The notes beneath the pieces were generated by a model. That model ran no database searches. It was given only the letters and a program-made list of their open reading frames with translations, and was not told the DNA's origin. A DNA stretch of 64,000 nt from Rhodococcus sp. SGAir0479 (GTDB lineage: Bacteria; Actinomycetota; Actinomycetes; Mycobacteriales; Mycobacteriaceae), in contig NZ_CP039432.1 of NCBI RefSeq assembly GCF_005484805.1, forward strand, positions 1,984,001 to 2,048,000, read 5' to 3'. How positions within the stretch are numbered: position 1 is the stretch's first letter; the number at the start of each line of letters is the position of its first letter. Of this stretch, positions 21,401 through 55,192 are shown piece by piece. Both the position numbers and the translations under genes were made by a program.

Positions 21401-24400
21401 CGCCGCCGGCTCGCGCGGATCGAGACGCACCCGCACCGGGATGGTGTTGATGAACAGCCCCACCATCGCTTCCACGCCGTCGACGACCGGCGGCCGTCCG
21501 GAGACCGTGGTGCCGAACACGACGTCGGCGCTCGCGGTCATCTGTCCCAGCAGGATCCCCCACGCGGCCTGCAACGCCGTGTTCACCGTGACGCCGGCGT
21601 TCTCGACGGTGCGGGCCAGCGCGTCCACCACCGCGTCCGGGACCGGAACCGGCTCGGCCGCGGTCGCCGACAGTCGTCGGCCGGCGGCGTGCGGCACCGC
21701 CAGTGTGGGCCCGGGCAGCCCGGACAGCGCGGTCACCCACGCCCGTTCGGCGGCCGCGGTATCGCGCGCGGCGAGCCAGGCCAGGTAGTCCCGGAACTGC
21801 GGGGCGGGCCGGTCCGACGGGCGACCACCGGAGACGTACAGCTCGAACAGATCGGTCACGAGCAGCGGCATCGACCACCCGTCCAGGACGATGTGGTGGT
21901 TGGTGACGACGAGACGATGCCGCCCCGATCCCACGTCGAGGAGCAGGAACCGGATCAGCGGAGCGCTACGCATGTCGAAGTTGCGGTGCTGTTCCCGGTC
22001 GATGAGGATCCGGTCCTCGCCGTCGCGGGCCTCGGCGACCGACCAGTCGGCGTCGACGTGGCCGAGGACCACCTGCACGACGGTGCCGTCGTCCCGGTTG
22101 TCGAACGCGGTCCGCAGGCTCGCGTGCCGGTCCATCAGGGCCTGGGCGGCGGCGGCCAGGCGATCGCGGTCGAGGTCGCCCTCGAGGTCGAGCACCACTT
22201 GCACGTGGTACGCGTCGACGTCCTGCCCGGCGAGCAACGCGTGGAAGAGCAGACCCTCCTGCAGCGGTGCGGGCGGCCACACGTCACAGGCGCCGGGATG
22301 CGCACTCTCCCAACGATCTATCTCCTTCTGTGTCGCGGTCACGAGCCCGAGGTCGGACGGCGTCAGTCCCCCGCTGTCCGGGCGGTCTGCGTACTCCGCC
22401 AACGCGTGCACCGCGGCGCGCCACAGTTGCGCGAACTCGTCGACCGCGTCGGCGTCCAGGACGTCCGGGGCGTACCGCACCGTCGCGGACAGTTGCTCGC
22501 CGTCAGCGGAAGTCGCGACATGGGCGTCGAGGGCGAGCGGGCTCGGGACCGGCCCCTGACCTGCGACGTCCACCGTCGCGTCGGCGGCGAGGGACCACCC
22601 GGCCGGGCCGTCGCCGGCCAGCCGACCGAGATAGTTGACCGACACCTGCGGCTCCGCGAGGTCGTCGAACGCCGACTCGGTCTCGGCGTTGAGGTAGCGC
22701 AACAGCCCGTACCCGATGCCGTGGTCCGGCACCGCCCGCCACTGCTCCTTGACCGCCGCGAGCGCGGTGCCGGCGGCCCGCCCCGCCGCGTAGGCGTCGT
22801 CGATGTCGACACCGGTCAGGTCCAGACGGAGCGGGAAGGTGGTGGTGAACCAGCCGACGGTGCGGGAGAGGTCCGCACCGGGCAGGATTCGTTCCTCCCG
22901 ACCGTGTCCCTCCGCCGAGACCACGACGCTCGGTAGGCCCCCGGCCCACCGGCGCCATCGGGCGATCGCCATCGCCGTGGCACAGAGCACCGCGTCCGCC
23001 GGTGTCGCCCGGTACAGCTGCGGGAGCCGGTCCAGCAACCGGTGGGTGACGTGGGCGTCGATACGTATGGTGACCTGCGACGCGGTGACGTCACGGTCGG
23101 GGTCGAACCGGCGCACCCCGAGGAGCGGGTCGGCGGGCAGCAAAGCCTCACGCCACCAGCGCAATTGGGCCACCGTGCGCGCGTCCCCGGCGATCCGGCG
23201 CAGCTCGTGGGCCCAGGTCCGCATCGACGTCCCCACCCGCGGGAGCTCCGGGGTCGTGCCGACGGACGCCTGCCGGCACGCGGTGACCAGGTCGCCGAGG
23301 AGGATGCGCCACGACACACCGTCGACCGCGAAGTGGTGGATCGCCACGGCGAGACGACCGGGCCGCTCGCCTCCCGCGTCGCACCACACGGCCTGCACCA
23401 TCACGCCGGCGGCCGGATCGAGGCGGGAGACCGCCGCGGAACGCGCCCGCGACGCCACCGTGTCGATGTCACCCGTGTCGATGTCACCCTCGCCGCGCAC
23501 GTGGGAACAGTCGACGCGCCGCAGGCAGTCGCCGGCGTCGACCGATCCGGGCTCGGCCACCGCGAGGCGGAGATCGGGGCCGTCGCCGACACGCACGGAT
23601 CGCAGCATGTCGTGCCGATCGAGTAGCGCCTGCAGGGCCATCCGCAGCTGCGCCCCGGTCAGGTCGGCGGGGACGCGGACGGCGACCGACTGCGAGAAGT
23701 GCTCCCACCCACCCCGGCGGCCCGCGAGCCACCGCAGCACCGGTGTCGGCTCCACGACACCGATTCCGCCGCCCGCGACCTCCGGAAGTCCGGGTACCCG
23801 GTCCGCGGCGGCGGCTTCCCCGGCCACGGTCGCCAGCCGTTCGACGGTCGGGCGCTCGAACACGTCCTGCGGGGCGAACAGGAGTCCTGCTGCCCGGGCC
23901 CGGGAGACGAGTTGGATGACGGTGATCGAATCCCCGCCGAGCGCGAAGAACGAATCGTCGGCCGCGACGGCGGGCACGCCGAGTGTCTGTGCGAACAGCA
24001 CCGCCAGTCGTTGCTCCACCGGCCCGGCCGGCGGCCGCCCGTGCCCGGCGAACGCCGCGAAATCGGGTTCGGGCAACGCCCGGCGATCGACCTTTCCGTT
24101 CGACGTGAGCGGCAGCGCGTCCAGCACCACCACCGCCGCCGGCACCATGTACGGGGGCAGTGTCCGTGCGAGGTCCTCACGCACCTGCAGCGGGTCCGGG
24201 GTGCGGCCGGGCGCCGGGACGACGTAGCCGACCAGCCGATCGTCCGCGCCGCCTTCGTCGCGCCGGGACACCACCACCGCCCGCGCGACACCGCCGCAGC
24301 GGAGCATCGCCGACTCGATCTCGCCGAGTTCGATCCGGAACCCACGAACCTGCACCTGGAAGTCGCTGCGCCCCAAGAATTCCAGGCGCCCGTCGGGTCC

Positions 24401-27400
24401 GCGGCGCCCCAGGTCCCCGGTCCGGTACATCCGCCGCCCGGCGCGGCCCGGCGCCGCGACGAACCGGCCCGCGGTGAGACCGGGCCGGTGGACATAGCCG
24501 CGGGCGACGGCGTCGCCGGACACGTAGATCTCGCCGCGGACGCCGGCCGGCACCGGCTGCAGGCGTCGGTCGAGGACGTCGACGCGGAGCCCCGGCAGGG
24601 GTCGGCCGATCGCGCCCGGCGGCGTGGACGTCGACGCGTCGGGCGCGAGCACCGCCGTCGTGTCGATCACCGTGGCCTCGGTGATGCCGTACATCTCGGC
24701 CACCACGTCGGTGTGACGCGGCCGTCGCGCGTACCACTTCCGGACCTGCTCGACGGCGAGTTCCTCGCCGCCGACGAACACGTAGCGCAGCGGCAGCTCG
24801 ACGTCCGCCCCGTGCTCGACGAGCTGGTAGAAGGACGCCGGCGTCTGGTTCAGCACGGTGACCGACTCGCGCTGCAGGAGGGCGACGAAGTCGCCGGGCG
24901 ACCGGACGATCTCGGGCGCGACGATCACCGTGGTGGCACCCACCGACAGTGGACCCCACGTCTCCCACACCGAGACGTCGAAGGCCAGCGAGTGGAACTG
25001 CGTCCACGTGTCGCTCGCCCGGAGGTCGAACTCGCTGTAGGCACCCGCGAGCAGTCCCAGCGCCGCACGATGGGAGACCTCCACGCCCTTGGGCCGGCCG
25101 GTGGACCCCGACGTGTAGACGATGTAGGCGGCGTTGTCGGGGTGCAGCGGCGCGGTGCGGTCCCCGTTCGTGATCGTCCCCGCCGCCTGCGCGGCGAGTT
25201 CCGCGCGCACCGTCGGCGAGTCCAGCACCACCACCTGAGCCGGGAGATCGCCGAGCGTGTCGACCGCGCCCAACGTGGTCACGACGCACGTCGGTGCCGC
25301 CTCGCCGACCACGAACGCGATGCGCTCCCGCGGCGCGCCCACGTCGATCGGAAGGTAGGCCGCGCCGGCGAGGACGGTCGCCACCACCGCGACGACCGCG
25401 GCGGACGAGCGCGGCACGGCTACGGCGACCGCCGTGTCCGGGCCGGCTCCGCGGGCGACGAGCAGTCGGGCCAGGCGGTTCGCGTCGGCGGCCAGCTCGG
25501 AGTACGTCCGACGGGACTCCCCGTCGACGAGTGCCACCCTGTCCGGGTGGTCGGCCGCGGCGCGGGTGAACAGGTCGGCCAGGGTGTCCCCCCGCACCGG
25601 GACCACGGCGCCGGGCTCGGCGGCCACCAGTTCCGCGGCGGTGAGCAGCCCGATCTCACCCACCGGGCGGCGTCGGTCGGCGGCGGCCGCGTCGAGGATG
25701 CGGTGCAGGCGTTCGGCGAACCCCTCCGCAGTCGCGGGGTTCCAGAGGTCGGTCGCGTAGGTGAGGTCGAATCGCATTCCGCCCGGGGCACCGTCGGGGT
25801 CGAAGGACTCGGACACGCTCAACTGCAGATCGAACTTGGCGATGCCGGGATCACAGTCGACCGGTTCGACCTCGAGCCCCGGCAGGCGCAGATACCCGGT
25901 CATGTCGGTCCGGTACTCGACCAGCACCTGGAACAACGGGGCGTACGCGGTCGACCGCTCGGGGGCGAGTTCGTCGACCAACCGCTCGAACGGCAGATCG
26001 GTCCGGGCGAAGGCCGTGAGATCGGCAGCGCGCGTCACCGCGAGGAGGTCGTCGAAACTCGCGCCCGTGTCGATCGGGGTGCGCAGCACCAACATGCCCA
26101 CGAACATGCCGACGATCTCGTCGAGGCCGGCCTCGCCGCGACCGGACACGGGCGTACCGATCACGATGTCGTCGGTGTCCGAGAGGCGGGCGACCAGCAC
26201 GGCCAGCGCGGTGTGGGCGACCATGAACATCGTGGCGTTCGCATGCCGGGCGAGGTCGGCGAGCCGACGATGGGTCCCGGCGTCGACGGTGAACCCCACG
26301 GTGGCTCCCCGCAGCGACTGGCGGGCCGGCCGCGGCCGGTCGGTCGGCAGCGGCACCACCTCCGGCATTCCCGCCAGCGTGGACCGCCATTGCGCGAGCT
26401 GTCGACTGTACAGCGAACCCGGGTCGCCGGGATCGCCGAGCAGATCGCGCTGCCACAGCGCGAAGTCGACGTAGTCCAGTGGCGGCGGTGCCCAGTCCGG
26501 CGCCTGGCCGCGACGGCGGGATTGGTACGCGCGCATGACATCTCGGGCGAGGGTGGTCATCGAGAAGCCGTCCGCGGCGATGTGGTGTGCGACGACCACG
26601 AGGACGTGGTCGGCGGGTGCGAGCCGCGCCAGCTGGGCCCGCACCGGCACCTGGCTGCTCACGTCGAAACCCGTGGACGCCGCGCTGGACAGGTGGGTGG
26701 GCAGGTCCGCGGCCCCCACCGACATTCGGTCCACGCGCGGTGCCTCGTCCGGGTCGACGACGACCTGGGCGGGGGTCCCGTCGACGAGGGGATACCGGGT
26801 GCGCAGCGTCGAGTGTCGCCGCATCACGTCACCGACCGCGGCAGCCAGCGCGTCCTCGTCGAGCGCTCCCCGCAGCCGCACGGCCATCACGATGTTGTAG
26901 GCGGGAGAGGCGGTGTCGAGCTGGTTGATCGACCACATGCGCAGCTGCGCCGACGACAGTGGCAGGACGTCCGGCCGGTCGTACGGGCGCAGCGCCGGCC
27001 GCTGCGCGCCGCCGGTGCCGGTCGCCCGGACCCGACGGGCCAGCCCGCGCACCGTCGGCGCTTCGAACAGTGCCCGCACGTCCAGGTCGGCGCCCAACGC
27101 GGCGTCGAGCCGCCGCGTGACCCGCGTCGCTGTGAGCGAGTTGCCGCCCAGATCGAAGAAGCTGTCGTCGGGGCCGATCCGGTCCAGGCCGAGGACCGCG
27201 CACAGGTGCTCGGCGACGATCTCCTCGAGCGGAGTGAACGCCACCGCGCCGGTGGCGTCGACGGCCGCGGGGAAGTCCGGTGCCGGCAGCGCCTTGCGGT
27301 CCACCTTGCCCGACCGCGTGAGGGGAACGTCGTCGATCGGCACGATCAGCGCGGGCACCATGTGCGGTGGCAGCCGGCGGCCGAGGTGGTTGCGCAGCTC

Positions 27401-30400
27401 GCCGGGGTCGACCGCCGGATCGTCACCCGACCTGACGTAGGAGACGAGGACCGTCTCCCCCGACGGCGCCGTTCTGCCCAGCGTTGCGGCGAACTCCACA
27501 CCGGGATGATCGGTGAGCGCGGCGTCGATCTCGCCGAGCTCGACGCGGAACCCCCGAATCTTGACCTGGAAGTCGCTGCGGCCCAGGTACTCGAGGGTCA
27601 AATCGTCGCGCCACCGCACGACGTCACCGGTGCGGTAGAGCCGGTCTCCCGGCCGGGTGCCGTCGTCGCCGTCCCCGGGCTGCGCGGACTCCACCACGAA
27701 CGGACTGGCCACGAACCGCTCGGCGGTCAGCCCGGGCCGGCGGTGATAGCCCCGGGCCACCCCCGGGCCGCCGAGGTACAACTCCCCCGGCGTGCCGACC
27801 GGGACCGGTTGCAGGCGCGCATCGAGGACCAGTTCGACGAAGCCGAGGGCCGGCGCACCGATCGTGACGGGCTCGTCGGGGTCGAGCGGTCCGGCGATGT
27901 TCGACAGGATGGACGCCTCGGTGGGTCCGTACGCGTTGAACATGCGCCGCCCGGGCGCCCAGCGCCCGACCAGCTCGGGCGGGCACGGCTCACCCGCGAC
28001 CGCGAGCGCGTGCAGGGTGCCGAGACCGTCCGGTCGCATGGATCCCAGCACGCTCGGGGTGAAGAAGGCGTGCGTCTGGCCGCCCTCGGCGAGGCTGCGC
28101 GCCAGATCTTCACCGCCCACGACGTCGGGCGGCGCGATCACCAGGTGGGCGCCCGACCCGAAGGCCATCAGCAGTTCGAACACCGACGCGTCGAAACTCG
28201 GCGACGTGAACTGCGAGACCTTCGACTCCTCGGTCACCGCGAGCTGCTCGCGCTCTTCCGCGACGAGGTTCGCCAGTCCGCGGTGCGTGAGCGCCACCCC
28301 TTTGGGGGTCCCGGTCGATCCCGACGTGTAGATCAGGTACGCGGGGTTGTCGGTGCGGAGCGGCGCGACGCGGTCGACGTCGTCGATCGGGGCGTCGGAC
28401 CGGCGACCGACCGCGGCGCGGTGTGCCTCCGAGTCGACGACGTGCCAGGAGATGCCGTCGCCCAACGCATCTCGCCGGCTCGACACGGTCAGTCCCACCC
28501 GGGCACCGGAATCGGTGAGCATGTGCTCGATGCGCTCGCGCGGGTAGGTGGGATCGACCGGGACGAAGGCAGCACCGGTCTTCGCGACCGCCCACACCGC
28601 TTCCACGAACTCGATCGACCGCGTCATGGCTACCGCGACAACGGTTTCCGGTCCGAGACCGGCATCGATCAGCAGACGCGCGGTGCGGGTGGAACGCGCG
28701 TCGAGCGCGCGGTAGCTCATCGCGTCGTCGCCACACGAGAGCGCCGGCGCGTCGGGGTCGAGGCGGGCGGCGTCGACGAGGATGTCGGGGAGCGTGCGAT
28801 GCCGGCGTCCCGGCCCACCGCGCACGGGCGCCAGCCGTGCGTAGTCGGTGGCCGAGAGCAGCCGCAGCCGGGCCAACGGCACGTCGGGGTCGGCGGCGAC
28901 GGCCAGCAGCACTCGTTCGATGCGGTCCACCACGCCGTCGATCTCCTGCGCGTCGAACAGGGCCGGGGCGTAGTCGACCCGCAGTTCCAGTCTGGTGTCG
29001 ACGGACGCGGCCAGCGCCAACGGGTAGTGAGTGGCGTCGTGGACGGTGACGTCGGCGACGCGCATGCCGGCGATGTCGGTGTCCGCGGTGAGCCCGCCCC
29101 GGTCGATCGGGTACGACTCGAACACCGTGATGGTGTCGAACAGGGCGGCCGCTCCGGTCGCGCGTTCGATGTCGGCCAGCCCCACGTGTTCGTGACCGAG
29201 CAGTGCGGTCTGGTCGGCGTGGCACCGGCGCAACAGTTCTGCCAGCGTCTCCCCGGGATGCAGGGTGACCCGCACGGGAACGGTGTTGATGAAGAGGCCC
29301 ACCATGTCCTCGATGCCGGCCACCCCGGGAGGCCGACCGGACACGATCGCCCCGAAGACGACGTCATCGCGTCGGGTCCACGCCGCCAGGACGATCGCCC
29401 AGGCCACCCGCACGACGGTGCTGAGCGTGACCCCGAGCTCGCGGGCCACCGCGTCGAGCCGCGCGGTGGTGGCCTCCGTCAGCAGCAGTCGGTCCGGTCG
29501 GGGCACCGTCGGCAACTGCCGCCCGCGCTCGAATGCGCCGACGAGCGTCGGTTCGTCGATGCCGGCGAGCGCCTCGACCCACCGGGCTGTCGACGCCTCC
29601 CGATCGGTCGCGTCCAGCCAGCCCAGATAGTCCCGGAACGACGCCGATACCGGGATCCGGCGGTGGTCGGGCGCGGCGTACAGCTCGAGCAACTCCCGGA
29701 CCAGCAGCGGCACCGACCAGCCGTCGAGCAGGATGTGGTGGTAGGTCAGGACGAGCTGGTACCGGTCGTCGGCCACGCGGACCAGCAGTGCGCGCACCAA
29801 CGGGGGCGTGGTCATGTCGAACCGCCGCGAGCGGTCCCGCGCGAGGATGCCCGCCACGTCCCCGGACCCGCGGACATCGGCCACGGCCCAGGGCAGTTCG
29901 ACGCGCCCGGGAACCAGTTGCAGCGGGTCGCCGCCGGGCCCGGTGGTGAACGCGGCCCGGAGGATCTCGTGCCGGTCCAGCAGCGCCTGGACCGTCCGCC
30001 GCATCCGGTCGTCGTCGACGGCCCCGTGCAGGTCGAGGACCAGTTGGACGAGGTAAGGGTCGGTGTCGTCCCCGGCGATTTCGGTCTGGAACAGCAGCCC
30101 GGCCTGCAACGGCGACAGCGGCCACACGTCGGTCAGCCCCGGGCACGCGGCTTCGAGCCGTTCGATCGTGTCCTGGTCGAGGCGCACGAGCGGCACGTCC
30201 GACGGGGTGAGGCCGCCGGCGCGTGGCGCCCCGGCCGCGTGCACGAGCGCTTCGCACGCGGACCGCCACAGCGCGGCGAGGTCACGTACCTCCTCCGGGT
30301 CGAGCAGTCCCGTGGGAGACGCGAGCGACGTCCGCAGCGTCGACCCGCGGCCGGTGTCGACGGTCAGCATGTTGATGTCGAGCGTCGCGGCGGCCGGCAT

Positions 30401-33400
30401 CGCGGGGTCGATCGTCGACCCCAGGTCGCCGCCCTCGTCGACCGGTAGCCAGGCGCTGTCCGGTGCTCCCGCGATCGTGACCCGGCCGAGGTTGTTGATA
30501 CTGATCTCCGGCGTCGCCGTCCGGTCCGGTGCGCCGATCGGATCGGGTCGGACGAGGTAGCGCAGCGCGCCGTACCCGATGCCGTGGTGCGGGGCGCCAC
30601 GCAACTGTTCCTTGACGAGTTTGAGGGCTTCGGTCGCGTCCGGGCCGCCACCGAACGCGACGTCGAGGTCGACGCCGGTCAGGTCCAGGCGTGCGGGGTG
30701 CGTGGTGGTGAACCAGCCGACGGTTCGGGACAGATCGGCCCCGGGAATCAGTTGTTCCTCGCGCCCGTGCCCCTCGAGCGTCACGACGCAGGTGGCGCGC
30801 GGCGTCCCCCGCCGACGCCGCCAGCCGGCCAGCGCCAACGCCCACGCGGTGACAACGGCGTCGTCCACGCCCCCGTGCACGGTCGCCGGCACGGTGGTGG
30901 TCAGCGCCGCGGTGACGTCCCCGGGCAGTTCGACGACCGTCGCGGCGACCGTCCCGGCGACATCACGTGCCGGGTCGAAGGGACGGCGCCCGAGCGGGAG
31001 TTCGTTTTCGGTCGCCGCGCTGCGCCAGTAGGCCACCTCGCGCGCCCGGTCCGGCGCGCCCGCCCACGCGGTCAGTGCGTGCGCCCACGTCCGCATCGAG
31101 GTGCCCACGGGCGGCAGTTGCGGCGCGGCGCCCTCGTGGACCTGCTGCCACGCGGATGCCAGGTGCGGCAACAGGATTCGCCACGACACCCCGTCGACCA
31201 CCAGATGATGGATCACCAGCAGGAGCCGACCGGGACGATGCGGTCCGCGGTCGATCCACACCGCCTCCAGCATGCGGCCAGACGACGGATCGAGCCGGCC
31301 GGCGGCGTCCTCGCGCGCCGCGGCGAGCGCCTCGGCCGGGTCGCGCCGGGCGTCCTCGCCGCTCCGGCGCACCACGTCGGCCGCAGCGATCGTGCCCGGC
31401 GGCGACACTACGAATCCCGGCTCGTCGGCGTGGAAGCGCGCCCGGAGCATGTCGTGGTGGTCGAGCACCGCCTGCACCGCGCCCAGCAGCTCCGGCTCGG
31501 TGATGCCGGTCGGCAACGCGACGCAGACCGACTGCGACAACCGGCGATACGGTCCGCCGCGTTCGACGAGCCACCGCACGATCGGCGTCCCCTCGACCCG
31601 GCCGACACCGCCGCCCGGCAACTCCTCGAGCACGGCCGGGGGCGCGGCCGCCGAGGTCGCGACCGCGGCCAGTCCGGCCACCGACAGCCGGTCGAACACG
31701 TCCCGGGGGGAGAGCGACAGTCCGGCCTCCCTGGCCCGCGACACGAACTGGATCGCCATGATCGAGTCGCCGCCGAGCGCGAAGAACGAATCGTCGGCGC
31801 CCACGGACTCGACGTCGAGCACCTGGGTGAACAGTGCCGCCAGAGTTTCCTCGACCGGTCCCGACGGGGGCCGTCCCGTCCCCGAGCCCGCGCCGAAGTC
31901 CGGCTCCGGCAGCGCCTTCCGGTCCACCTTGCCGTTGACGGTGAGCGGCAGGCGCGCGACGACCGTGACGGCGGCGGGCATCATGTACGGCGCCAACCGT
32001 CCGCCGACACGCTCGCGGACACGGTGGGGATCGAGCACCGTCCCGGCGTCCGGGACCACGTAGGCCGCCAACCGGACCGGGCCGCCGTCGTCCCGGCGCG
32101 GCACGACCACGGCGTCGGCGACGCCCGGGCACTCGCGCAGCGCCGACTCGATCTCCCCCGGCTCGACACGGAATCCGCGGACCTGCACCTGCGCGTCGCT
32201 GCGACCGAGGAAGACCAGGTGACCGTCGGGATCCCACCGCGCGAGATCCCCCGACCGGTAGAGCCTGCCCCCGTCGGGGGCGAAGGGGTCCGCGACGAAC
32301 CGGGCCGCGGTCGGACCGGCGCGTCCGCCGTAGCCGCGAGCCAGCTGGGACCCGCCCGCGTAGATCTCCCCGACCACCCCGACCGGGACGGGCCGCAGTC
32401 GCCGGTCCAGCAGGTACAGCCGCAGGCCCGGCACGGCGTCACCCACCAGATTGCCCGGCGCGCGGGCACGTTCGACGTTCATCCGGATCCCGGTGAGGAA
32501 GACGGTGGTCTCGGTGATGCCGTAGACGCTCAGGAGTTCGGCGTCGCCGCCGTCGTGCCGATCGAGCCACGGCAACAACCGGCTCTGGTCGTAGTCGTCG
32601 CCGCCGACGAGCAGGCGCCGCAGGTCGGGCAGCGACCGTCCGGCTGCCGACTCGGTGTCGGCCAGTTGGAGAAAGGCCGCCGGGGTCTGGCCCAGTACGT
32701 TCACGTGCTCGCGGCGCAGCAGTTCGACCAGTGCCTCCGGGGTCCGCACGGTGTCCTGATCGACGACGACCAGGGTCCCGCCCGCGGTGAGCGCGCCCCA
32801 GATCTCCCAGACCGAGAAGTCGAACGCGAACGAGTGGAACAGCGCCCACACCGATCCGTGCCCGGTCCCGAACGCCACCGCCGCATTCGCGAGCATCGCG
32901 GTCACGCTGCGATGGCTCACCTGCACGCCTTTCGGCCGTCCGGTCGATCCGGATGTGTAGATCGTGTACGCGAGGTGTCCGGTGCGCAGGGGCGCCCGCC
33001 GGTCGCGGTCGGTCACCGGAGCGGAGGACTCCGCGGCGAGCGCCCGCACCGTCGCGGGGTCGTCGAGCACGAGCCGCGGCACCGCCGCCGGCAGTTCGGT
33101 GGCCAAGTCGGTGGTCGTCACGACGCAGGACACTCCGGCGTCGGTCAGCACGTAGTTCCGCCGCGACGCCGGGGCGGTGGGGTCCACCGGCACGTACCCG
33201 GCGCCGGCGGTGACGACCGCCAGGAGTGCCACCACCAGGTCCTCGGTCCGGGCCAGCACCACGCCCACCGAGGTCTCCGGGCCTGCGCCCGCCGTGACGA
33301 GACGGCGCGCGAGCTGACCGGACCGCGCCTGCAGTTCGCGGTACGTGAGTCGCCGCTGACCCGACACGACGGCGACCCGCTCCGGCGCCCGGGCGGCGGC

Positions 33401-34876
33401 GCGCTCCACCAGCCGGGGCAGGGTCGCGTCGACGGTGACGCCGCCACCGCTCCGCAGCGAGAAGCGCAGCGCCGCGCGGGGGTCGTCGACGACGGGGAGG
33501 TCCCCGACGGGCGTCTCCGGTGCGGCCGTCGCCAGTCCGTGCAGCAGACGACGGAACCGTTCGTGGTGCGTGCGGAGCGTATCCGCGTCGTACAGGCGGG
33601 GATTGGCCTTGAGGTCGAGCCGGAGCGGCGCGCTGGGCCCGTACCGGTAGACGTTGACGAGCAGGTCCTCGACCGGGCCCGACGACAGCACCTCGAGCGC
33701 GCTCCGGGTCGCTCCCAGGCGTAGTTCTGCCGGGAACAGCATCAGGTTCAGCAGCGGCCCCGAGAAGCCCCGGCCGCCCCCGTGGTCGCCGCGGTCGCGG
33801 CGCAGATCCTCGTGCCGGTAGCGCTGGTGACGCAGGGCCCCGGCGAGCGCGGCCGACACCGCGGTGACGAGTTGGGCGACCGTCGTGCAGGTCCCGACCG
33901 AAATCCGCAGCGGCACCACATTCGCCAGCGTGCCGCCGGACCGTCGCAGTACCGCCGTGGTCCGTGCGGAGACGGGCAGGCTCAGCACGATGTCGTCGCT
34001 GCCGGTGTGCCGGGAGGTGTACGCGGCCAGCGCCGCCGCGACCAGCACTGCGGAACTCACGCCGTACCGGTCCTGAGCTGCGCTCAGCGCCGCAGCCGTG
34101 CCGGAGTCGACGACGCCGCCGATGTCCCGGCCCAGCGCGTGGGCCGGCGCGGACCGTTCGGCGAGACTGCACCTTTCGGGCATACCCGACGTCCGGTCGA
34201 CCCAGTACTCGCGGTCCGTGCCGCGCCGCGTCGAGTCGGCGTACGCAGCGTCCGCCGCGTGGACCGCGTCGAGATCCGCGCCGCCGAGTGGGGCCGGGCG
34301 TCCCTCGACCGCCGCGGTGTACAGGTCGGCCGTCCGGTAGAGCATCGCCGCGGCGCCGACACCGTCGAGCGCGATGTGATGGGTCCGCGTGTACCAGAGG
34401 TACCGGTCGTCGGCGATCCGTAGCAGCGCCGACTCCATCAGCCGATCGCGCACCATGTCGAGCGGGACGGTGATGTCGCGCCGCATCCACGTGTGCGCCG
34501 CGGCCTCCGGGTCGGGTTCACCCCGCAGATCCACGAGTCGGGTTTCGGTGTCCAGTCGCGGATCGAGGATCTGGTGCGGGCGAGAATCCACCAGTACCAG
34601 ACGAATCAGGCCGGACCCGAACTCGCGCGCCGCCCGCGACGCCGATCGCGACAGCTCGGCGACGTGCAATCGGGCGCCGTCCTCGCGGATGTCGACGTAC
34701 TGCGCGACCGACATCGGCACGGCCGGGTCGAGCTGCTGGGCCAGCCACTGCCCCGCCTGCGCCGGCGTGAGCGGCATCGGGTCCGTGTACCCGCCGGCCG
34801 CGCCGTCGAGTTCCGGCAGGCCGGCACCAGCGTCCGTGGTTCCGGGCGCTGCGTCGACTCGGAGGGGCAGCTCCAT
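18452..34876 (-). CDS. Four-module non-ribosomal peptide synthetase
   Basis: A 5474-residue NRPS. Approximate domains: C1 34-470 (HHIALDG at 166), A1 490-985 ([11 protein letters not shown] at 642), T1 near 1035 (GGDSIMA), E1 1090-1570 ([12 protein letters not shown]); C2 1580-2020 (HHILLDGW), A2 2040-2540, T2 near 2574 (GGNSLTA); C3 2635-3080 (HHIAADGFS), A3 3100-3600, T3 near 3645 (GGDSITV), E2 3700-4190 ([12 protein letters not shown]); C4 4195-4620 (HHIVLDGW), A4 4650-5130, T4 near 5170 (GGNSLSA), TE 5215-5474 (GYSVGG). All key motifs look intact. Predicted product: a tetrapeptide with D residues at 1 and 3, released by the thioesterase; C1 could accept an external acyl or aryl group. The ATG lacks a ribosome site; Met34 is an alternative. 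No MbtH, transporter or tailoring gene is adjacent. Confidence 0.95.
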
Positions 34877-50054: not shown

Positions 50055-50594
50055 ATGGCGGTGGCCTGGACACGGCGGTGTGTGGTCGTCATGGGGGTGT
50101 CGGGGGTCGGCAAGACCGCGGTCGCGCGCCGTCTCGCGGGGCGGCTGGAGCTGCCGTGGATCGACGCCGACGACCTGCACCCGCCACGGAACGTCGCGAA
50201 GATGACGCGCGGGATACCTCTCGACGATGCCGACCGGCAGCCGTGGCTCGAGGCGGTCGGCGACTGGTTGGCGAACCACTGCGGCGCCGGCACCGGGGGC
50301 GTCGTCGCCTGCTCGGCACTGAAGCACGGTCATCGTGACGTGCTGCGCCGCAGCGCGTTCGATGTGTTCTTCGTGCAGCTGACGGCAGATCCCGCGGTGA
50401 TCGCACACCGCCTCGACCAGCGCACCGGCCACTTCATGCCGGCGGCGCTGCTGGAATCCCAGTTGGCGGCGCTGGAACCGCTCGGCCCGGACGAGAACGG
50501 CGTGCCCGTGGATGCCGCGCGCGAGCTGGACGAGATCGTCGACGCGGCGGTGGCTTCGATCCGAGCGGCCGGCCCGCGGCGACGAGCGACCTAG
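50055..50594 (+). CDS. gntK: Gluconokinase
   Basis: A 179-residue kinase phosphorylating gluconate to 6-phosphogluconate. The P-loop is VMGVSGVGKTAVARRLA; DADDLHPPRNVAKMTRGIPLDDADRQPWL is the gluconokinase signature; CSALKHGHRDVLR and GHFMPAALLESQLAALEPL complete the family pattern. ATG at 50055 has GGGAG 5 nt upstream. No gluconate permease or regulator is adjacent. Its stop overlaps the convergent NUDIX gene by 4 nt. Confidence 0.92.
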   Translation: MAVAWTRRCVVVMGVSGVGKTAVARRLAGRLELPWIDADDLHPPRNVAKMTRGIPLDDADRQPWLEAVGDWLANHCGAGTGGVVACSALKHGHRDVLRRSAFDVFFVQLTADPAVIAHRLDQRTGHFMPAALLESQLAALEPLGPDENGVPVDAARELDEIVDAAVASIRAAGPRRRAT

Positions 50595-51250
50595 TCGGCG
50601 ACCCACCGCCAGACGACGGCCGGGCGTCCCGTGGCCTGGACGCGGACGCGTTCGTCGGTGCGTTCGAGGCCGGGAAGTGCTTTGAGGGTGCGGTTGAGAT
50701 TGCCTGCGTCGGGCCGTGTTCCGGTGAGCGCGGTGGTGACCTCCACCGCGTACGTCGCGGGAAACTCCGGGCCCAGCAGCGCGCGGGTGAACGTGATGTC
50801 GTGCCAGAGCAGGCGGCTTCCCGCGACCGCACGGCCGTCGGCGACGATGCGGTTGTGATCGAAGGCCAGGTCCCCGGGCGCGTCGAGGGGCCGCCACTGC
50901 ACCGCGGTGTCGGCGGTGACGCGGAAGTCGGCGCCGGTGACCACCGCCCACATGGTCACCGAGAGTGTCGGTCCGCGGGGATCGCGGTGGGGCTCGTCGA
51001 ACACCGCGAGCTGACCGATCGCGACGATCGCGTCGTCGGGGATGCCGAGTTTGCTGGTGACCGCGCGGCGGGCGGCGTCCCGGAGTCGTTCCCCGGCGCC
51101 GAGGAGTACACCGGGCAGCGCGAGCTGCCCGGTGTACGGCTCCCAGCGGCGGGGAGCGACCGCGAATCGCAGCTTCCCGGGTTCGGGGTTACCGAACCGG
51201 AACGCGAGCACATCGACGGAGACGGCGGACTGGTCCATACCCGCGATCAT
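50591..51250 (-). CDS. Degenerate NUDIX regulator, NrtR-like
   Basis: A 219-residue protein with a NUDIX fold and a C-terminal winged-helix-like part (GTRPDAGNLNRTLKALPG and a final GRPAVVWRWV). The NUDIX box near 50-73 reads GVLLGAGERLRDAARRAVTS then KLGI, with both catalytic Glu of REUxEE missing, so it should sense a nucleotide-like ligand and not hydrolyse it. The ATG overlaps the stop of the PurA-like gene (ATGA); Met5 is an alternative. It is a second, diverged relative of NrtR in this window and is the likely regulator of its operon. Confidence 0.78.
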   Translation of the reverse strand: MIAGMDQSAVSVDVLAFRFGNPEPGKLRFAVAPRRWEPYTGQLALPGVLLGAGERLRDAARRAVTSKLGIPDDAIVAIGQLAVFDEPHRDPRGPTLSVTMWAVVTGADFRVTADTAVQWRPLDAPGDLAFDHNRIVADGRAVAGSRLLWHDITFTRALLGPEFPATYAVEVTTALTGTRPDAGNLNRTLKALPGLERTDERVRVQATGRPAVVWRWVAD

Positions 51251-52539
51251 GCGGCAAGTGCCGAGGCGATGGTGCGGGCGGCCCGGTCCGGGCCGTCCGC
51301 GGCAACGGCCACCGGTGCCCCGGCCACCGTTTCCAAGTGCGCGAGAAGTTCCGCGCGGCCGGTCGGCAGCGGCACCTGGGCGACGGTGACTCGGCCCAGC
51401 GTCTCGGTCAGGCGCTGCTGATACGCCAGGTCCTGTGCGGGTCCCAACGGGAGCCGTTCTCCCACATGGCGATAGCACTGCCCTGCCCGGATCGGTGTCC
51501 CGGCCGCCGCCGCGCGCTCGACCGCGTCCAGGTGGGTGACCGCGAGGCCGTCGACGCCTCCACACACCTCCACCGCGTACCGGAGCAGCACCTCGTCGAG
51601 GTGCCCCACCCGGAAGGCCCCCTGGTAGTCGCCTGTGCCGTTGTGTGGTTCGGGGAGCGCGGCCGCGAGCGCCGGATCCTCGGTGGGGTGCGGCCCGGCC
51701 CCGTGCCGGGTGGTGTAGGTGCGCGTCACGCCCAGCACGTAGCCGCGGCGACCGAGTCGGTCGATCAGCTTCCGCGCATGGGAGGGCTCGACCGTCGACC
51801 ATGTGGTGTGTGGGTGGAAACCGCGCCACTCGTCGAGCAACACACCCTGCGCGCCCTCGAACACGAGCCGCCCGCGTGCCGCGAGATCCGCGAGATCGCC
51901 GTCGTCGGTGACGCGCACCGCAGCCGCGAACTCGACGTACAGCGCGACCATGTCGTCGACTCCGGGGAACGGGTGCCGACCGTCGGCCAGCAGTGGCCGG
52001 TAGTGCGCCGCCAGCGCTTCCAGTTTGCGGCGCAATGCGGCCGGAGTCCGGCAATCGCCCACCGTGGGCGCGTCCGGGTGCGTCAGCGCGTAGGCGGCGG
52101 TCTCACCGATGCCCTTGCCGCACGATCCGTGCCGGCCCACACCGCGCGCATCCTCTCGGGCCCGGTTCGCGGCCACGTGAATCGGCGTGGTGAGCAGGGC
52201 GCGGGCGTCGACGTGCAGCAGTCGCAGCGGGTTCGCCACCCCCAGTGCGGCCAGTGCGCGCGCCTCGGCGGCGAGCGCGATCGGTTCGACGAGCACGTGA
52301 CGCGAGAGCACGGTCGGCACCTCGGAGAACGTGCCCGCCCCGAACTGCGAGAAGGTGTGGTGGCGGCCGTCGGTGACGACGTTGTGGGCCGCCTGCGCGC
52401 CGCCGTTGAAGCGGACGACGGCGGCCACGTCCAGGCCGGTTTCCGGTGCGCACAGCCAGTCGACGGTGGCGCCCTTGCCGGCGTCCCCGAAGCCGAGGTC
52501 GACCACGATGATGTCGCGGTCTCCGAAGATCTCGCTCAC
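51247..52539 (-). CDS. Adenylosuccinate-synthetase-like protein, divergent paralogue
   Basis: A 430-residue PurA-fold protein. The GTP loop is GFGDAGKG (residues 16-23; usual form GDEGKGK), keeping the catalytic-type Asp19; His52 in GGAQAAHNV matches the catalytic His. FEGAQGVLLDEW near 226 and TYTTRHGAGPHPTE near 275 are PurA blocks. But the Arg-rich aspartate loop (TTGRRRR in PurA) is replaced by GTGDYQGAFRVG near 300, so the amino acceptor is probably not aspartate. Start GTG at 52539 with AAGGAA upstream. It is flanked by vWA and NUDIX genes and is unlikely to be the housekeeping PurA. Confidence 0.8.
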   Translation of the reverse strand: MSEIFGDRDIIVVDLGFGDAGKGATVDWLCAPETGLDVAAVVRFNGGAQAAHNVVTDGRHHTFSQFGAGTFSEVPTVLSRHVLVEPIALAAEARALAALGVANPLRLLHVDARALLTTPIHVAANRAREDARGVGRHGSCGKGIGETAAYALTHPDAPTVGDCRTPAALRRKLEALAAHYRPLLADGRHPFPGVDDMVALYVEFAAAVRVTDDGDLADLAARGRLVFEGAQGVLLDEWRGFHPHTTWSTVEPSHARKLIDRLGRRGYVLGVTRTYTTRHGAGPHPTEDPALAAALPEPHNGTGDYQGAFRVGHLDEVLLRYAVEVCGGVDGLAVTHLDAVERAAAAGTPIRAGQCYRHVGERLPLGPAQDLAYQQRLTETLGRVTVAQVPLPTGRAELLAHLETVAGAPVAVAADGPDRAARTIASALAA

Positions 52540-52603
52540 GGTGCGTTCCTTCCGAGGTGGGACTGGTCCCGGCTCGTGCCGGGCCGGGGCCAGCCGGGTG
52601 GTG

Positions 52604-53590
52604 TCAGGTGAACGAGACGTCGTCATCGTCGGCGTCGCCGAGTGGCACCCGCGCGGTCGTCACCGGCGCGCGGCCCGCGCCGAGCGTCACCAGCGCGGTG
52701 CCGACCGAGTCGGCCTCGGCCACCGAGCCGATGTCACGCAGGTCCGCCAGACCCTCGCCGAGGTCGATCCGGTCCTCTCCCATGCCGACGGTGAGCGCGA
52801 TCAGCTCGCACACCGCCGCCGGGTCGTCGAGTTTCAGGAACCGCTCCCCCAGCAGCCGGGTCCAGTGCCGCGCGATTTCCGGATCGTCGTAGTAGGCCGA
52901 CTGATTCGGGAGCACGAAGTAAACGTTCCAGCGTTCTTCGAGCTCCCGGTAGACCGATTCGACCGTCACGTCCCGACGCAGGTCGTCTCCGATCACCGTG
53001 CGGACCTGACGCGCCGACAGCCGTGACTTGTTGAACTCGTCGCCGATGATGAACAGGTAGCCCTTCTGCCCCCGCTTCTCCCACGCGTCCGTCGCGATGT
53101 GCCGGGTCATGAAATACGCGGCCAACTCGTAGCTCTCGGATTTCTGGCCGCCGCCACCGCCTTCCAGGAAGACGGTGCGCAGCTGTTCGTCCATCGCGTT
53201 GTCCGACTCGAACTGGCCGATCTGCAGCGGCACCCGGTCACAGTCGGCGTCACCGATGCCACCGAACAGGATCTGCGGGTCGTCCGCGTACCCCTTCCGC
53301 TGCAGCAGACCGTGCAGCTTGCCGAGCTTGTCCTGCATGATCCGCGGCACCACGCCCATCGAGCCGGTGACGTCGAACAGCACCGCGATGGGCAGCGAAT
53401 CCGGGTGCCCGGCCGAATCGCGTGATTCGCGGACGCTCACCCCGAACGGGTCGAGGCTCGGATCGACCGTCCATTCGGTGTACGGCCGGGTCCGCATCGT
53501 TGCGGTGTAGCCGAAGTCGTCGAGACCGCGGGCCGCGCGGAAGGTCTTGGCCGCGGCGTAGGTGTCGTCGTCCCACTTTCCGTATCCCAT
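52604..53590 (-). CDS. vWA-domain protein
   Basis: A 328-residue protein with a von Willebrand A domain: the MIDAS metal motif lies in VLFDVTGSMG near residue 70 (DxTGS), and later FGGIGDADCD and LFIIGDEFNKS supply the usual further metal-site region. The N-terminus MGYGKWDDDTYAAAKTFRA looks family-specific. No signal peptide, so intracellular. Such proteins usually act as scaffolds with chaperones or ATPases. ATG at 53590 is used; a GTG at 53599 that overlaps the upstream stop is the alternative. It lies between the J-domain/pseudokinase gene and the PurA-like gene. Confidence 0.82.
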   Translation of the reverse strand: MGYGKWDDDTYAAAKTFRAARGLDDFGYTATMRTRPYTEWTVDPSLDPFGVSVRESRDSAGHPDSLPIAVLFDVTGSMGVVPRIMQDKLGKLHGLLQRKGYADDPQILFGGIGDADCDRVPLQIGQFESDNAMDEQLRTVFLEGGGGGQKSESYELAAYFMTRHIATDAWEKRGQKGYLFIIGDEFNKSRLSARQVRTVIGDDLRRDVTVESVYRELEERWNVYFVLPNQSAYYDDPEIARHWTRLLGERFLKLDDPAAVCELIALTVGMGEDRIDLGEGLADLRDIGSVAEADSVGTALVTLGAGRAPVTTARVPLGDADDDDVSFT

Positions 53591-53595
53591 GAGGA

Positions 53596-54666
53596 TCACT
53601 TTCCTTTCGTGGTGGGCATCGTGAACGGGCGGAATCGGCGCCGCCCGTACAGTCGGTCGAGGAGGTCGTCGAACTCGGTGAGCAGATCCGCGGCCTCAGG
53701 GCGGCGATGCGGCCGAGCCTGCATGCATCCGGAGGCGAAGCGCCGCAACGGCTTCGAAGCGGATCCGTCGAGCATGTCCAGCATCAGCGCGTGCAGCATG
53801 TAGACGTCCCACGCGGGTGTCGCTGGAGCGCGGTCGGCGGCCTCCGGCGGATACGCGTTGCGCTGCGATCCGATCGTCGCGGTCGGCACCGATCCCGGCC
53901 GGGTCGCGAACGACCAGCCCACCAGGACCACACCGTGCCGCTGGGGATGGATCAGCACGTTGTCGGCGGTGAGGGCGGTGTGCACCCACCCGGCCCGATG
54001 CGCGGCGGCGACCGCGCGGAGCAGCCGTCGGTGCATCCACGCCCAGTCCCGGCCGTCGAGTCCGCCCGGAACGGCCGTGCGGATGTCGGCGAGCGACACG
54101 AAGCCCTCGGTCAGGTCGTCGAGGACGTTCACCGCACGTCGCGCACCGTCGCCCGCGTCGACGCAGGTGACGCGATCGACCAGGCGCGGAAAGTACGGCA
54201 ACAGCCAGTCGTTGCCGCCTTTCGCCGACGCCGCGATGTCGGACAGGGCGCGGCGTTCGGCCTCGATCAGCACGTTCGACCCGGCCGCCCGCGGGATCTT
54301 CACCACGACGGGCGCCCCGTCGCCGTCCACGGCCCGGAAGACGTCGGCGACGGATCCCCGCGCACAGCGGGCGCCGAGCACGTAACTGCCGGCCCGGCCG
54401 GTCAAGGTCGTCGCGCCTTCCCCGTCCGCTCCCGCGCCTCCCCCGGTCTGCCATCGACGGTACAGTTCCGCGGCTCGACTGAACGCGGCTGCCGCGCGGG
54501 CAGCGTCCGCCGGAGCGACGCGATCCGGGTGGATGAGCATCGACAGCCGGTGGAACCGGCGCCGGGCGGCGCGCTGTGCCGTGAGATCGGTTGCGGCAGA
54601 GCCGAACAGATCGTCCGGCGTCGTGGCGGTCTCGACTGCCGTCAGGGCCTCACTCGTCGTGGTCAT
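53596..54666 (-). CDS. J-domain/kinase-like fusion protein, probable pseudokinase
   Basis: A 356-residue protein of two parts. Residues 10-75 form a J domain with HPD near 45 (MLIHPDRVAP), which would recruit DnaK. Residues 95-330 follow the protein-kinase fold: PVVVKIPRA has the ATP lysine, but the catalytic loop reads HTALTADNVLIH, lacking the HRD aspartate, and DFG is replaced by VGW. It is therefore probably a pseudokinase or atypical kinase. The ATG lies 6 nt after TAGACT with no ribosome site, so leaderless. First gene of a four-gene unit. Confidence 0.78.
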   Translation of the reverse strand: MTTTSEALTAVETATTPDDLFGSAATDLTAQRAARRRFHRLSMLIHPDRVAPADAARAAAAFSRAAELYRRWQTGGGAGADGEGATTLTGRAGSYVLGARCARGSVADVFRAVDGDGAPVVVKIPRAAGSNVLIEAERRALSDIAASAKGGNDWLLPYFPRLVDRVTCVDAGDGARRAVNVLDDLTEGFVSLADIRTAVPGGLDGRDWAWMHRRLLRAVAAAHRAGWVHTALTADNVLIHPQRHGVVLVGWSFATRPGSVPTATIGSQRNAYPPEAADRAPATPAWDVYMLHALMLDMLDGSASKPLRRFASGCMQARPHRRPEAADLLTEFDDLLDRLYGRRRFRPFTMPTTKGK

Positions 54667-54671
54667 GCTTT

Positions 54672-54686
54672 TAGTCTATGTGACTA
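54672..54686. promoter_or_regulatory. Inverted repeat over the promoter of the J-kinase/vWA/PurA-like operon
   Basis: On the minus strand: TAGTC-ACATA-GACTA, a perfect 5-bp inverted repeat with a 5-nt spacer. Its right arm overlaps TAGACT, a fitting -10 box 6 nt before the leaderless ATG at 54666. A repressor bound here would block transcription. The NUDIX regulator at the end of the operon is the obvious candidate; this pairing is inference. Confidence 0.5.
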
Positions 54687-54754
54687 TAAGTCGATCGCGC
54701 AACACCTGTCGCAGTACACCGGGTGGGAAGCCGGCGCTGGATAGGCTTCGCGGC

Positions 54755-55192
54755 ATGGACATTCGGGTGGAAGCGATCGCAACGGCAAGTGACGAGCTCG
54801 TCGGGGCGCTCGGCAGGCTGCTGCCGCAGTTGTCGTCAACCGCCGAGCCCGTGGACCACGACGCCGTCCGTCGGATGGTGGCCAACGACGCCAACACGCT
54901 GCTGGTGGCCCGCACGGCCCACGGCATCGTCGGCACCTTGACACTGGTGCTGCTCCAGCTGCCCTCCGGTGTCCGGGGACGAATCGAGGACGTCGTCGTC
55001 GACACCGCGGCGCGCGGACACGGTGTCGCCCGCCTGCTCACCGGCGAGGCGCTGCGGATCGCGCGAGAGTCGGGCGCTCGGACGGTGGACCTGACATCGA
55101 GGCCCGACCGGGTGGCGGCCAACCGACTGTACGAGGATCTCGGCTTCCGGGCCCGGGAGTCCCGTGTCTACCGGTTCCCGCTCGACCGCTGA
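54755..55192 (+). CDS. GNAT-family N-acetyltransferase
   Basis: A 145-residue acetyltransferase. LLVARTAHGIVGTLTLVLL is the central strand pair; IEDVVVDTAARGHGVARLLTGEAL holds the acetyl-CoA loop (R-x-x-G-x-G/A form); NRLYEDLGFRARES is the usual C-terminal signature. Substrate unknown. TAGGCT sits 7 nt before the ATG and no ribosome site is seen, so it may be leaderless. It is divergent from the J-kinase/vWA/PurA-like operon with 88 bp between. Confidence 0.85.
   Translation: MDIRVEAIATASDELVGALGRLLPQLSSTAEPVDHDAVRRMVANDANTLLVARTAHGIVGTLTLVLLQLPSGVRGRIEDVVVDTAARGHGVARLLTGEALRIARESGARTVDLTSRPDRVAANRLYEDLGFRARESRVYRFPLDR

Follow-up and report, generated by a model that had tools for sequence, protein, structure and literature searches.

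The DNA studied here is a window of 64,000 nucleotides from Rhodococcus sp. SGAir0479 (contig NZ_CP039432.1, positions 1,984,001 to 2,048,000). Its subject is a unit of four minus-strand genes that encode, in order, a J domain joined to a pseudokinase (hereafter JK), a vWA protein, a PurA-like ligase, and an NrtR-like NUDIX protein with a winged helix (Table 1). The JK and vWA genes overlap by 4 nucleotides, as do the PurA-like and NUDIX genes, and a gap of 64 nucleotides separates vWA from the PurA-like gene if the GTG at 52539 is taken as the start. An earlier note on this sequence had described four closely spaced or overlapping genes on that strand, coding for a J domain fused to a kinase-like fold, a vWA protein with a DxTGS motif (DVTGS in the window), an adenylosuccinate synthetase paralogue with a changed substrate loop, and a NUDIX protein lacking the catalytic glutamates. 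Coordinates and strand were right, and the four assignments stood up to the comparisons reported below. We find that vWA and PurA-like genes form the constant core of a unit shared by bacteria and phages, and we predict that the PurA-like enzyme does not bind aspartate in the usual manner.

Table 1. Features of the four-gene unit and its promoter, in window coordinates
Feature	Position	Strand	Remarks
JK (J domain and pseudokinase)	53596..54666	-	356 residues; HPD at residues 46-48 of the translation
vWA protein with motifs of the metal-ion-dependent adhesion site (MIDAS) type, D76-x-T-x-S and G186-D-E	52604..53599	-	331 residues
PurA-like ligase in which the usual aspartate-binding loop is missing	51247..52539	-	430 residues; GTG start uncertain
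NrtR-like NUDIX and winged-helix regulator with degenerate Nudix box	50591..51250	-	219 residues
21-bp palindrome, probable operator	54669..54689	.	TTATAGTCACATAGACTAAAA on the minus strand; 2 nucleotides upstream of the JK start codon
Putative -10 element TAGACT within the palindrome	54673..54678	-	6 nucleotides upstream of the JK ATG; putative leaderless promoter

The PurA-like enzyme

The window protein is clearly related to adenylosuccinate synthetase (Pfam match, 4.8e-59), and its TIGR00184 score of 117.1 bits lies far under the curated cut-off of 395.55. A canonical PurA is encoded elsewhere in the same genome. Indeed, all 15 unit-bearing genomes checked hold a canonical PurA above the cut-off, each scoring at least 531.8 bits, whereas the unit copies reach at most 128.3 bits.

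We tabulated residues for 176 of 179 PurA-like open reading frames (ORFs), those that were long enough, together with four PurA and three PurZ/PurZ0 sequences. One hundred of the unit enzymes come from bacterial or named records, three named phages among them, and 76 from viral contigs. Numbering follows E. coli PurA, whose residues we take to have the roles given here. With the PurA fold and P-loop, the unit enzymes share Asp13, Lys16, His41 and Gln224 in every case and Asp333 in 175. Asn38 and Thr129, presumably phosphate contacts, are altered: the former is Gln in 174 enzymes, the latter Cys in 142 and Val in 28, with Thr kept in 6. Val273 has become His in all 176.

The loop that reads T301-G-R-x-R305-R in PurA takes the form Q-G-(gap)-x-[mostly F/W/L]-R in the unit enzymes. 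Thr301 occurs in none of the 176 (Gln in 174, Ala in 2), the position of Arg303, which we take to be an aspartate contact, is a gap throughout, and Arg305 is likewise lost from all (Phe 121, Trp 23, Leu 21, and I, M, A or V in the other 11); Arg306 is kept in 175. Thr301, Arg303 and Arg305 are all present in the four PurA rows. The T..RR loop is kept by solved bacterial PurA, archaeal PurA, PurZ (TVT..RR) and PurZ0, the archaeal evidence being from alignment only, as neither tree described below includes archaeal PurA. Because the base and GTP residues are kept while the loop, Asn38 and Thr129 are altered, the base and GTP sites appear retained; the site for the amine, and the phosphate site in part, appear rebuilt. 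The usual mode of aspartate binding is predicted to be lost in this paralogue.

In a tree of 40 rows, for which 12 of the 80 viral loci were chosen, 33 unit enzymes formed a single clade (support 100/99) apart from the four PurA and three PurZ sequences. A second tree, built by a quick search from 125 rows with the 118 of 176 unit enzymes left after thinning at 80% identity, again placed the PurA/PurZ references separately. A PurZ-type enzyme is disfavoured by Asp13 in 176/176 and by the separate clade in both trees; a canonical PurA isozyme is disfavoured by the residues at positions 301 and 305 and by the same trees.

Conservation in bacteria

One genome per species was scanned, yielding 465 stretches that code for a relative, and we kept the 80 best. 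Among those listed, the closest named relative of the vWA protein is from Prescottella subtropica (87%). A PurA-like gene accompanies vWA in 79 of the 80 loci, NUDIX in 76 and JK in 48 (one of them a 39-residue piece), all on the vWA strand, and in the four loci that lack PurA-like or NUDIX the contig ends no more than 1.5 kb away from vWA. By taxonomic level, vWA was found in 14 of 151 genomes of the family, where PurA-like adjoins it in all 14 and JK in 12 plus one as a fragment, in 82 of 397 genomes of the order, and in 2 of 396 in a phylum-wide sample. JK is not constant, and vWA plus PurA-like thus make up the constant core.

Fourteen further loci, hand-picked from genomes with a vWA match, all contain vWA, PurA-like and NUDIX, and nine contain JK. 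The NUDIX gene is upstream and in the same orientation in seven, downstream on the opposite strand in four, and downstream in the same orientation in three. The full quartet, with the NUDIX gene divergent, is plasmid-borne in Agrobacterium vitis and in Rhizobium leguminosarum; in Acetobacter persici the divergent NUDIX gene matches in two frames and is apparently frame-broken (L129 5025-5677). That the regulator stays with the core across four arrangements points to function and not mere synteny. The genes that the earlier note took to act as a unit therefore do keep company, recurring across phyla and in phages, and it is false that they are together only here.

Within the genus, unit DNA is present in 2 of 14 genomes, the window's own and G130. 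Of the 13 other genus genomes, 11 match the left flank of about 3 kb and the remaining two match part of it. Eleven Rhodococcus records in a plasmid collection carry the unit. In many Nocardia loci the flanks are common to different species, which suggests vertical inheritance there.

The JK and vWA proteins

The HPD motif is invariant in the 30 aligned JK proteins. Pfam DnaJ matches nine of them, and the window protein scores under its cut-off (13.4 vs 27.8 bits). When compared with solved Ser/Thr kinases, the JK family profile gave a best E of 1.3e-10. The aspartate of the HRD motif is missing in 30/30, and that of DFG in 25 and present in five; with these aspartates lost, the kinase part reads as a pseudokinase. 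The AlphaFold2 model of JK has a mean predicted local distance difference test (pLDDT) score of 89.1 and a predicted template modelling (pTM) score of 0.76. Among 64 viral JK proteins, 53 have HPD within the first 120 residues. In a Variovorax locus (L130 5783-6961), a CxxC-rich, zinc-ribbon-like stretch, recognized by eye, replaces the J domain ahead of the pseudokinase.

We also searched eight genomes for a JK away from the unit. Six of them lack JK at the unit, and in those six we detected generic kinases only (best E 1.2e-13). JK is thus an accessory component.

In 31 vWA sequences, D76, S80 and G186-D187-E188 are invariant and T78 is almost so. Pfam vWA models matched none of the 31 members scanned, a sequence search of the PDB with the vWA protein gave no match, and comparing its profile with vWA domains encoded in the same genome gave a suggestive result only (probability 49%, E 1.7e-4). 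The AlphaFold2 model (mean pLDDT 85.4, pTM 0.86), in contrast, has matches to integrin I domains and to the NorD VWA domain with E of about 1e-5 to 1e-6. On these model matches the assignment to the vWA proteins stands at the level of the fold, with a MIDAS-type motif present and a metal site predicted.

The NUDIX protein and the promoter palindrome

The window NUDIX protein exceeds the Pfam NUDIX cut-off (25.1 vs 21.1 bits) and matches NrtR_WHD weakly (16.3 bits vs a cut-off of 27), while three phage-borne relatives exceed both cut-offs. The Nudix box is degenerate in the window protein, where the catalytic glutamates are lost, and in two aligned alphaproteobacterial copies; it is intact in five other loci (L136, L137, L141, L145 and L147). 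The protein looks like an NrtR-type regulator.

The promoter palindrome has the form TTTTAGTC-N5-GACTAAAA, and lineage variants, TTTGAGTC and TTCTAGTC, change symmetrically. In many relatives it reads GTTTTAGT-N7-ACTAAAAC. We counted it in the 120 bp upstream of the first gene of 79 loci, L091 being left out, with shuffled sequences as control. At least seven of eight arm positions matched in 67 of the 79 promoters, 56 of these sites being consensus-like, as against 3.8% of shuffles; all eight matched in 33 promoters and in 0.06% of shuffles. In 31 of the 56 consensus-like sites the palindrome starts 23 or 24 nucleotides ahead of the start of the JK match, and in JK-less loci it precedes vWA. 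The window genome holds one such site, at the unit, and in a set of 17 genomes the palindrome was found in all nine that bear the unit and in none of the eight congeners that lack it. Several other lineages, such as L136, L137, L141 and the alphaproteobacterial loci, gave no match to the pattern, so that the operator claim is valid for part of the family.

The palindrome is probably the operator of the unit, and the NUDIX protein, likened to NrtR in the earlier note, would be expected to bind it. Since the palindrome ends so close to the ATG and holds a -10-like TAGACT, its natural reading would be a leaderless promoter occluded by a repressor. A divergent plus-strand ORF (window 54755-55192) faces the palindrome. 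In another genome, an extra palindrome outside the unit (G083:C1:2709588-2709608), TTTTCGTC-N5-GACGAAAA, is nearer to the motif of MsNrtR described below and may be a nad-type NrtR site.

Phage and viral copies

Matches to vWA occur in 208 of 50,697 phage records, comprising 189 of Mycobacterium, 10 of Rhizobium, 6 of Vibrio and three others. In the Bixzunavirus (Bxz1) phage Breeniome, the gene order is kinase, vWA, a 90-residue protein and PurA-like; in a Bxz1-type phage (L128 9020-9292) the 90-residue protein between vWA and PurA-like belongs to a PHROG family of its own, phrog_3263. One Rhizobium and one Vibrio phage have vWA and PurA-like genes, with JK unmatched. In Rhizobium phage TM39 (L133 2005-4269), genes for HAD-like, PRTase_3 (ComF-like) and NUDIX proteins lie near vWA and PurA-like, an arrangement that recalls Ter-type nucleoside pathways. 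PHROGs lists the three phage families separately.

IMG/VR provided 363 stretches that code for a relative, of which we took the best-scoring 80, near-copies included (for example L192/L193 and L194/L195). PurA-like is found in 78 of these loci, JK in 64 and an NrtR-like NUDIX in four. Next in frequency is a family that lies downstream of PurA-like in 14 loci (e.g. L202 2183-2935) and whose one member tested is an ATP-grasp of the R2K clade, and a family with a tested member of HAD_SAK_2 lies upstream in 10, nearly the same ones. All four loci with the NrtR-like NUDIX (L171, L180, L185 and L209) also hold a NAMPT-family gene near vWA, PurA-like and JK; NAMPT was identified by Pfam in L180 alone (L180 3565-9462). 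The pairing of NAMPT with NrtR hints at a possible link to NAD.

In the larger enzyme tree, placing the bacterial rows among the viral rows requires four changes, at least two of them forced by strong branches. The deep diversity is mostly viral, in a sample whose bacterial part is dominated by Actinomycetota and in which several forks are weak. As judged from these comparisons, the unit is common to bacteria and phages and, within our sample, most diverse in phages.

Comparison with described systems

PurZ and PurZ0, phage-borne PurA paralogues like the unit enzymes, resemble them also in the missing Arg303 but are not known to have a vWA or JK partner. They differ further in keeping the T..RR loop and in carrying Ser at the Asp13 position (PMC12884076), while the unit enzymes keep the aspartate, have the altered loop and form a separate clade. 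A 2026 paper on PurZ in Nucleic Acids Research sorts 767 PurA homologues, with 251 in a PurA group and 151 in PurZ.

MsNrtR of M. smegmatis is described as binding a 23-bp palindrome, GTTTTCGA-N7-TCGAAAAC (PMC6800001). The unit regulator resembles it in joining a NUDIX domain to a putative winged helix, in the layout of the palindrome seen in many relatives and in an altered Nudix box; the inner half-site differs, however, and the present palindrome stands at a vWA/PurA-like unit and not at nad genes.

The closest published idea is that of systems centred on ADP-ribosylglycohydrolase (ARG), in which a Nudix-HTH regulator accompanies a vWA chaperone with a predicted role in phage conflict (PMC9503650). 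The likeness lies in the NrtR-like regulator with a vWA protein. Unlike the present unit, those systems are built around ARG and a phosphatase, and the main text of the paper has no mention of adenylosuccinate, PurA, pseudokinase or DnaJ. No ARG is found among the four unit proteins, a statement that does not extend to flanking genes, which were not searched for one. The Ter-type nucleoside-signal systems (PMC7824862) share a vWA protein and predicted nucleotide-derivative chemistry with the unit, and phosphoribosyltransferase and HAD genes stand near it in TM39; the main text of that paper does not mention adenylosuccinate, PurA or NrtR. In a paper on Kuttervirus phages, an adenylosuccinate synthase and a vWA gene both appear in the table but are not adjacent there, and the host genera of Kuttervirus are missing from our organism tally.

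We found no published description of the gene set among the matches listed from the open-access literature searched, and no paper matched for J domain, pseudokinase and vWA concerns this set, judged by title. In this respect we agree with the earlier note, which knew of no described system with these genes.

Discussion

We read the unit as a nucleotide-chemistry module common to large phages and bacteria, governed in bacteria by its own NrtR-type switch, in which an amine other than aspartate would be joined to a 6-oxopurine nucleotide and vWA and JK would act as Hsp70-linked partners. We favour this reading tentatively, giving it somewhat less than an even chance. In such a module, the NUDIX protein would bind the palindrome over the -10 element and hold the operon off; a nucleotide ligand, either of the ADP-ribose/NAD type or made by the enzyme itself, would release it. 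The enzyme, like PurA, would phosphorylate O6 of a hypoxanthine nucleotide at the expense of GTP, and displacement of the phosphate by a non-aspartate amine would then yield an N6-substituted adenine compound. Keeping the enzyme or a partner protein in place, or controlling it, would fall to the vWA protein, with a predicted metal site, and to JK, acting through Hsp70 and a non-catalytic kinase fold; the chaperone coupling put forward in the earlier note is consistent with this, in that a J domain and a vWA protein point to protein-handling partners. The likely arena would be nucleotide or NAD conflict of phage and host.

Several observations weigh against this reading. Of the four-gene set in the earlier note, vWA, PurA-like and, in bacteria, NUDIX are nearly constant, but JK is unmatched in 32 of the 80 bacterial loci, two of which (L059 and L068) cover less than 0.7 kb upstream of vWA. 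HPD is missing from the first 120 residues of 11 of the 64 viral JK proteins, although one of these, L189, has a DnaJ match further in. The vWA likeness is at fold level only, NAD-type neighbours are rare (4/80 viral loci), and the Variovorax locus has no NUDIX match within the stretch covered. As to the enzyme, loop position 300, aromatic (Y, W or F) in 167 of the 176 members, varies even within the four PurA rows, where T300 is not fixed. Because Arg303 is absent from all three PurZ/PurZ0 rows too, the case for a changed aspartate site rests on Thr301 and Arg305.

A bolder form of the preferred reading, which we regard as doubtful, is that the PurA-derived ligase links C6 of a hypoxanthine nucleotide to an amine of a new kind. 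This amine might belong to a protein that a platform of vWA and J-pseudokinase, tied to Hsp70, presents. The outcome would be a new N6-linked nucleotide signal or a new nucleotide-protein conjugate, under a single-target NrtR-type switch in bacteria.

It is unlikely, in our view, that the enzyme performs re-amination, with ammonia or a simple amine turning inosine-type into adenine nucleotides and so undoing deaminase-type defences or damage, as a rescue of ATP or dATP in phages and an inducible repair in bacteria. Asp13 and Gln224, which serve the hypoxanthine base, are kept while the aspartate loop is altered, Asn38 and mostly Thr129 (phosphate contacts in PurA) are changed, and the unit occurs in many large phages, all of which would fit. 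The conserved aromatic-Gln-Gly motif in the loop, however, suggests a specific nucleophile and not bare ammonia, and among the neighbours that recur we noticed nothing glutaminase-like, no search by family name having been made.

We judge a bacterial antiphage defence system, with phage copies as decoys or antagonists, to be similarly improbable. The unit is accessory, with its DNA in 2 of 14 genus genomes; plasmid-borne copies and phage homologues exist, and the promoter layout suggests induction. In contrast, when PADLOC was run on the four unit proteins, kinase-containing models matched JK only and the other three were unmatched, the neighbours are common to many Nocardia loci, unlike a typical defence island, and the phage copies keep the catalytic residues. 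The role in defence or stress suggested by the earlier note is not borne out.

Modification of a protein, whose amine would be presented by vWA and JK and receive the purine nucleotide via C6, seems quite improbable. Two protein-handling partners speak for it, as does the R2K ATP-grasp family (one member tested) that 14 of 80 viral loci carry immediately downstream; against it, known PurA-fold enzymes act on small amines, and no tagged protein is known.

That the gene supplies an ordinary second adenylosuccinate synthetase raising purine supply is very improbable, since the PurA fold and catalytic Asp13 and His41 are kept but Thr301 and Arg305 are replaced in 176/176, the score is 115.6 bits against the 395.55 cut-off, and the vWA partner is constant. 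Equally improbable is an unusual DNA-base pathway akin to PurZ and 2-aminoadenine: the enzyme is a phage-borne PurA paralogue labelled '2-aminooxy adenylosuccinate synthetase' in records, but it lacks the PurZ serine at position 13, where Asp stands in all members, and branches apart from PurZ.

If the preferred reading of a ligase for another amine is right, hundreds of bacterial and phage genomes would encode an unknown N6-modified purine or conjugate, produced by a system in which nucleotide chemistry and chaperone parts linked to Hsp70 work side by side. Public records name the enzyme adenylosuccinate synthetase, and phage records and PHROGs name it '2-aminooxy adenylosuccinate synthetase', although Thr301 and Arg305 are gone in all 176 members. 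Bxz1-type phages of M. smegmatis, an easy laboratory host, carry this small unit, and the palindrome would provide a direct reporter for the ligand of the switch. Elsewhere in the window, a single ORF of 5474 residues occupies positions 18452-34876 on the minus strand.

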